The notes under the pieces: model-generated | Seen by the model: the letters and a program-made list of their open reading frames with translations, nothing else | The model's database searches: none | What the model was told of the DNA's origin: nothing | Source: Dokdonia sinensis | GTDB taxonomy: Bacteria > Bacteroidota > Bacteroidia > Flavobacteriales > Flavobacteriaceae | NCBI RefSeq assembly: GCF_003688895.1 | Contig: NZ_REFV01000002.1 | Location: forward strand, 248,001-312,000 | Direction of reading: 5' to 3' | DNA: 64,000 nucleotides | In this document: piece after piece, positions 26,411 to 55,064 of the stretch | How the letters are laid out: each line of letters starts with the position of its first letter | Numbering within the stretch: position 1 is the stretch's first letter | Program-made: the position numbers and the translations under genes

Positions 26411-26460
26411 CTTCCGCTTTCGGGATTTATTCTGAGTTTATCTCACAGAAAGCGTAAAAA
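26411..26460. repeat. palindrome split by one 24-bp unit
   Basis: Left half CCGCTTTCGG, then the unit at 26425-26448 (ATTTATTCTGAG then TTTATCTCACAG), then right half AAAGCGTAAAAA. One of five such composites. Confidence 0.75.
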
Positions 26461-31727: not shown

Positions 31728-31772
31728 TAACGCTTTTCGTTTGATAAACTCAGGGTATTTTGCAAAAGCGTC
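31728..31772. repeat. palindrome split by one 24-bp unit (inverted orientation)
   Basis: ACGCTTTTCG, then the complement of the unit (31738-31760, TTGATAAACTCAGGGTATTT), then GCAAAAGCGT. The copy is diverged. It lies between the propeller gene and the ketopantoate reductase gene. Confidence 0.6.
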
Positions 31773-32820: not shown

Positions 32821-32880
32821 TACGCGACTTTGTCCTATTTTTTAATTTATCCTGAGTTTATCTCACATAAAGCGTAAAAA
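32821..32880. repeat. palindrome split by one 24-bp unit, left half decayed
   Basis: Unit at 32845-32868 (ATTTATCCTGAG then TTTATCTCACAT) followed by AAAGCGTAAAAA. Upstream TTACGCGACTTTG may be the decayed left half. Confidence 0.6.
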
Positions 32881-50651: not shown

Positions 50652-50675
50652 ATTGTGTAAGTATGATTGGTTTAG

Positions 50676-50719
50676 CCTTTTCGTGAGATATACTCAGGAT
50701 AAATCGCAAAAGCGTAAAA
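50676..50719. repeat. palindrome split by one 24-bp unit (inverted orientation)
   Basis: The complement of the unit at 50681-50704 (CGTGAGATATACTCAGGATA) followed by CGCAAAAGCGTAAAA. Left half decayed to CTTTT. Confidence 0.7.
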
Positions 50720-54432: not shown

Positions 54433-54485
54433 CGAGCGCTTAATTCGCTCATTTGCAAATTACCCCAATTCGCTAATTGTTTAAT

Positions 54486-54992
54486 ATGGAAGACAGAAAA
54501 CTACCCGCAGACCCGCTGGCCACCATAGGAGGAATACTTGCCATTGTTATAGGAGTAGTGGGATGTTGTTGCTACGGGATTACGGCTTTGATTCCTTTAA
54601 TAATTGGAATTATAGGGCTTGTTGCTTGTAATCGAAGTTTACGAGAGTATCGTAATAATCCAGAAGGGTACTCTTCCGTAAGTAAGAGTAATATAAATAT
54701 GGCAAAGGTGTTGAACATCATCGCGATCGTTTTTAATGGATTGATTGTTCTCATATTTTTAATTATGTTTCTTGTGTTTGGGGTGGCTAGTGCAGCTTCT
54801 ATTTACAAAGTTATGGAAGAAGGTGGCTTTGAAGGTTTGGAACACATAGATGATCAATCTTTTGAGGCCGAGGATTATGAAGATGATTATAATTATGAGG
54901 AGAATGATGAGTATTCTGATGAAGTAGATTCTTTGAAGTTCGACACAATGATTATAGAAGATGTTTCTATAAAAAAGGATACTTTATATTAG
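54486..54992 (+). CDS. DUF4190-like membrane protein with acidic tail
   Basis: About 168 residues. Two membrane segments (about 10-45, with ILAIVIGVVGCCCYGITALIPLIIGIIGLVAC, and about 75-97) fit small CCC-motif membrane proteins. The C-terminal 55 residues are very acidic and aromatic (EDYEDDYNYEENDEYSDE). The start is the ATG at 54486, not the TTG at 54477 inside the repeat arm. The function is unknown. It stands between the four-helix element and the dioxygenase gene. Confidence 0.65.
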   Translation: MEDRKLPADPLATIGGILAIVIGVVGCCCYGITALIPLIIGIIGLVACNRSLREYRNNPEGYSSVSKSNINMAKVLNIIAIVFNGLIVLIFLIMFLVFGVASAASIYKVMEEGGFEGLEHIDDQSFEAEDYEDDYNYEENDEYSDEVDSLKFDTMIIEDVSIKKDTLY

Positions 54993-55064
54993 TACGCTTT
55001 TGCAATTTATCCTGAGTTTATCTCACGGATTTATCCTGAGTTTATCTCACGGAAAGCGTAAAAA
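54993..55064. repeat. palindrome split by two tandem 24-bp units
   Basis: TACGCTTTTGCA, then unit one at 55005-55028 and unit two at 55029-55052, both ATTTATCCTGAG then TTTATCTCACGG without a mismatch, then AAAGCGTAAAAA. This is the clearest composite. It lies between the acidic-tail protein gene and the dioxygenase gene. Confidence 0.85.

Follow-up and report, generated by a model that had tools for sequence, protein, structure and literature searches.

Short hairpin repeats nested in an evenly spaced palindrome of the genus Dokdonia

The 16-base palindrome CGCTTTCGCGAAAGCG is an iterated element found throughout the genus Dokdonia and is old there. In Dokdonia sinensis, copies of this palindrome are split by short hairpin repeats of several types. 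Because the inserts recur at one exact point, the palindrome appears to be a docking site for several tiny repeats. Insertion into palindromes that were already present is well supported, and we consider it rather probable that small, gene-less, REP-like hairpin elements use the palindrome as their landing site. The 64-kb stretch of D. sinensis DNA in which the first loci were recognised is referred to as the window.

Results

Split palindromes in the window

Two exact 24-mers had been described at 55005-55052 between the palindrome parts TACGCTTTTGCA and AAAGCGTA in a sequence-only reading of the window, and a pattern search bore this out. The same reading listed five such loci. All lie where it placed them, but 32845 has only its right arm, and that of 50681 is imperfect. 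The features are as follows.

54993-55004, + strand: left palindrome part TACGCTTTTGCA, immediately 3' of the stop codon that ends the 54477-54992 ORF
55005-55028, + strand: first copy of the 24-bp hairpin unit ATTTATCCTGAGTTTATCTCACGG, 0 mismatches
55029-55052, + strand: second copy of the unit, identical to the first, a tandem duplication, 0 mismatches
55053-55060, + strand: right palindrome part AAAGCGTA
26414-26456, + strand: composite of CCGCTTTCGGG, the unit at 26425-26448 and AAAGCGTA
31730-31771, - strand: inverted composite, arms ACGCTTT and TGCAAAAGCGT flanking a diverged unit at 31737-31760
32845-32876, + strand: unit at 32845-32868 with the right arm AAAGCGTA only, the left arm being unrecognisable
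50670-50716, - strand: inverted composite, unit at 50681-50704, with one intact arm, CGCAAAAGCGTA, and the other imperfect

The left flank of the 32845 unit reads TCCTATTTTTTA, and the imperfect arm at 50681 reads AAAAGGC. With up to three mismatches allowed, the unit pattern has 5 matches in the window compared with 0.00 expected from shuffled windows; the unit at 31738-31760, which has diverged further, was judged by eye. When the five loci are aligned with the matching empty site in a relative, the unit falls between ..CGCTTTYGCR and AAAGCGT... The palindrome is not split at its centre, as had been proposed, but 2 nt away from it, between CGCG and AAAG. The tandem copies at 55005 are identical whereas the other unit copies in the window differ. 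The gene beside this site resembles 4-hydroxyphenylpyruvate dioxygenase (glyoxalase-domain matches), adjoins a homogentisate dioxygenase gene and has its closest relatives in Dokdonia, which places the window in this genus.

The unit and other hairpins across the genome

A whole-genome search that used the unit and took no account of the palindrome returned 24 matches at 23 loci. Both palindrome arms flank the unit at 19/23 loci, one arm at 2/23 (L060, L061) and none at 2/23 (L059, L069). Frequent units away from palindromes would have spoken against the sequence-only reading, and such units are confined to those last two loci. The orientation of the unit relative to the palindrome is constant and no palindrome letters are lost. 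The main cut is CGCG^AAAG, with a rarer one at CGCGAA^AG (CGCGAA^AGCG at L064 and L066). The same end of units of this family, the A family, always adjoins CGCG, so that unit and junctions read CGCG/ATTTATCC...GG/AAAG. At a second double site (L057, C42:81378) a different hairpin, ATTTATCTCAAATTTATTTCGCG, which ends in CGCG, is followed by an A-type unit. A relative of the ATTTATCTCAAATTTATTTCGCG hairpin splits a palindrome at C42:83550, 2.2 kb from C42:81378.

Neighbouring units resemble one another. Copies less than 35 kb apart differ on average at 2.86/22 positions, all others at 4.45 (permutation p 0.0014). Two copies on contig C2, 2.1 kb apart, are identical and inverted, and the window's own subfamily, TTTATCTCAC, exemplifies this local clustering.

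At two mismatches the A family is found in this genome only among 18 Dokdonia genomes; G002 and G010 each carry one diverged hairpin resembling it, outside palindromes. The exact composite pattern had no match in 84,980 species genomes, a collection that may omit near relatives, and just two loosely similar hairpins turned up in 0.98 Mb of loci that come almost entirely from other genera. A literature search on the palindrome core and the CCTGAGCTTGTC hairpin returned nothing relevant.

Broken palindromes were also collected regardless of what breaks them. This search yielded at least four further hairpin types at the same palindrome spot, CCTGCCTGCCGGCAGGCAGG, AAACGCTGAAGACGTCTT, CTTGTCCTGAGCGCAGTCGAAGTA and AGCTTGTCTCGAACTTGTTTCGGG, the first of which also occurs in four congeners (G009, G010, G013, G015). 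In the 764 kb sampled, about 21% of the genome, 18 palindromes close again after a gap of 20-24 bp, and every other 5-bp gap bin up to 200 bp holds 0-2. This peak, together with the shuffled windows, rules out chance. At the cut, CGCG shows 16 changes in 76 letters among filled sites and is retained in 127/137 empty ones.

Abundance and spacing of the palindrome

The palindrome occurs about once per 3.4 kb. Its core, GCTTTCGCGAAAGC, has 857 exact copies in this genome and 369-905 in each of 17 congeners. In the 764 kb sample 185 cores were observed compared with 0.01 (order-4 Markov) or 1.0 (order-5) expected, an excess over composition of the HIP kind which extends within and between genes. 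On contig C12, 64/106 copies (about 60%) lie within ORFs, as called by a simple longest-ORF rule, and these ORFs cover 89% of the contig, which amounts to an intergenic enrichment of about 3.6-fold. On C12 the roughly 20 bp to the left of the palindrome are rich in T and G, and those to the right in A and C. Outside Dokdonia the core is almost absent from 0.98 Mb of corresponding loci, with one locus carrying it (L137) and another a shorter core (L143). Copies in the window are as follows.

103-116, no strand assigned: intact lattice palindrome GCTTTCGCGAAAGC, an example
4163, 6955, 9327, 12582, 18201, 24123, 29449, 36209 (starts): other palindromes with at most 1 mismatch
38833, 41277, 46452, 52037, 52648, 57554, 62890 (starts): further palindromes with at most 1 mismatch

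The copies are evenly spaced in the window and on C12, C41 and C2, as DNA uptake sequences are. In the 764 kb to which the spacing and lattice tests apply, the coefficient of variation (CV) of spacing is 0.56 compared with 1.0 expected, and samples of seven congeners (G001, G003, G009, G013, G014, G015, G017) gave 0.41-0.62. The interval is about 3-4 kb (6.5 kb in G017), pairs closer than 1 kb are few, and spacings below 500 bp number 4 compared with 30.5 expected.

Split sites were then compared with this lattice. For 40 split sites, compiled by hand and including some weaker members, the median distance to the nearest intact palindrome is 2122 bp, and it is 2140 bp for palindromes themselves; random points, drawn uniformly rather than matched to intergenic DNA, gave 913 bp (p 1.7e-9 for the difference from split sites). 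The CV stays at 0.559 when the split sites are added and rises to 0.642 with random points (0/1000 as low). These distances and the unchanged CV show that split sites behave as members of the lattice, occupying its vacancies.

Empty and filled sites in congeners

Since intergenic DNA is too diverged for base-by-base alignment, correspondence of sites relies on the flanking genes. The ORF before the 55005 site is DUF4190-like; its counterpart in an uncultured Dokdonia (L075), with 42% protein identity, is followed directly after the stop codon by the empty palindrome TACCGCTTTCGCGAAAGCGTAA. An empty palindrome follows the same gene as the C2:102935 composite in four congeners (G001, G008, G014, G016). 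Intact palindromes lie in the corresponding intergenic region in G003, G004, G013 and G017 for C12:132676 and in G013 and G014 for C12:131000. Empty palindromes at four composite sites indicate insertion into a palindrome that was already there, which fits the earlier proposal of insertion followed by unit gain. At two other sites no palindrome was found at the corresponding place, in 15 congeners for 26425 and in congeners for C2:100825, so that an empty-first history is seen at some sites but not at all.

Search for a cognate transposase

The genome has a single IS200-like (Y1_Tnp) gene. Its flanks (L048:1163-1289 and 1871-2005) carry the repeats CATTCAGACCTACAAGGAG...ACCTTGTAGGTCTGAAT, which are unrelated to the palindrome. 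Y1_Tnp genes were found in 4/18 Dokdonia genomes, and the palindrome is in all 18. No unit lies near a Y1_Tnp gene at any of the 9 such loci in the genus, and neither this genome nor those loci contain a RAYT gene flanked by the unit. With other repeats flanking Y1_Tnp, a RAYT is not supported as the cognate enzyme. The unit and its junctions have no GTAG tetranucleotide at the hairpin foot, and the unit has no CGTC tag (TGTC and CCTC variants included). Its stem is about 6 bp and begins with CC, whereas CGTC REPs are defined by a stem of 8-9 bp that begins with AT.

Discussion

How the units may reach the palindrome

The landing-site reading draws on the arms and constant orientation at 19/23 unit loci, the 20-24 bp gap peak and the other hairpins at the same spot. 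It also draws on the empty sites of congeners, the filling of lattice vacancies, the similarity of near copies, the predicted folds of families A and B, the CGCG that is variable when filled and nearly fixed when empty, and the identical tandem copies at 55005. Insertion of a single strand into the folded palindrome is the favoured route. The palindrome would fold as a single-stranded hairpin with the stem GCTTT/AAAGC and the loop CGCG, and the unit would attach at the loop's 3' edge, which would stack the unit's hairpin onto the stem of the palindrome. The joining would fall to a single-strand transposase of IS200/IS605 or RAYT type that works in trans, and the exact tandem copy at 55005 may have arisen later by slippage. 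In predicted folds of A and B composites the unit hairpin abuts the palindrome stem and CGCG lies in the bulge; those of families D and E and of the 50681 site are less tidy and count against this reading. So do the lack of an enzyme linked to the unit and the two sites, 26425 and C2:100825, where congeners lack a palindrome. It is not easy to see how one transposase could handle several hairpins that are unrelated and cut at two positions. C12 carries units in either orientation, so the strand bias to which lagging-strand insertion tends is not seen.

The main rival needs no transposase, and we regard it as possible though doubtful. Short-tract, non-allelic gene conversion or template switching would use a filled palindrome as the template for a nearby empty one. 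Identical arms would supply the homology, so that the copied unit ends up at precisely the same position and no bases are dropped or repeated. Conversion thereby accounts for several hairpin families at one spot, for exact retention of palindrome letters, for either chromosomal orientation and for local clustering, including the identical inverted pair, and the failure to find a cognate transposase is in its favour. TTTTGC arm variants are frequent at filled sites and rare at empty ones, as if arms travel with units, although decay after insertion explains them equally well. Against conversion, homologous recombination would have to work with very short arms of 6-10 bp, and the first origin of each hairpin family is left unexplained.

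Mobility of the whole composite, with palindrome and unit landing as a single piece, is improbable. It would account for congeners without any palindrome at 26425 and C2:100825, but it is disfavoured by the insert-free palindromes of congeners at four composites and by split sites that fill lattice vacancies rather than random places. Least probable is that the composites are 3'-end or terminator hairpins under selection, which would make the association with the palindrome functional rather than insertional: several lie just 3' of stop codons (directly so at 55005), but others lie between divergent genes and possibly within ORFs, congeners manage with an empty palindrome, and the stem is followed by a run rich in A rather than T, which disfavours an intrinsic terminator.

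Relation to known repeats

The units are likely REP-like hairpins nested in palindromes, of a kind without GTAG or CGTC tags or a cognate RAYT. As in known nested REPs, a hairpin repeat lies within a palindrome that has empty copies elsewhere. Such REPs are GTAG-15 of A. variabilis, GTAG-23 of T. roseum and CGTC-1 of H. neapolitanus (PMC3733652). These too are short hairpins inside palindromes, and the T. roseum target also has hundreds of copies, but the Dokdonia units are untagged, several families share one target, and that target is evenly spaced and genus-wide. ISPsy8, ISPa11, ISPpu9/10 and others insert into REP palindromes (PMC1525189); there also an iterated palindrome is the target, whereas the Dokdonia insert is 20-24 bp and gene-less. 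REPINs and their RAYTs resemble the units as small non-autonomous hairpin repeats scattered through one genome (PMC3116915, PMC2817692) and differ in that no RAYT gene was found with the Dokdonia unit as its flanking repeat. A longer repeat of about 210 bp was also seen in this genome at C12:137984-138198 (L034), with copies 76-80% identical at C12:340787, C12:36227, C12:38289, C23:132077, C1:139050 and C1:439427, and it too occurs in congeners.

The palindrome itself resembles HIP1 of cyanobacteria in being short and strongly over-represented (PMC4390886), but its sequence is unlike (TTTCGCGAAA core), with about 860 exact cores per genome. Significant even spacing was reported for uptake sequences of Pasteurellaceae and Neisseriaceae by Karlin et al., as cited in PMC1939737. 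These sequences number roughly a thousand or more, with many lying in ORFs, and in this and their even spacing they are like the palindrome; they are non-palindromic, unlike the Dokdonia element (PMC1939737).

REP-like repeats are common, but few have a known insertion target or route. In Dokdonia the target is identifiable, hundreds of empty copies exist per genome, and empty and filled sites can be paired between species, which makes targeting directly testable. We know of no DNA uptake sequences in Bacteroidota. Tentatively, the palindrome may be an evenly spaced, chromosome-wide Dokdonia signal for uptake of self-DNA or for chromosome organisation, which would be the first in Bacteroidota, with several families of hairpin parasites docking in its loop. 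That the target forms an even lattice throughout the genus suggests a chromosome-scale function not yet described in Bacteroidota.
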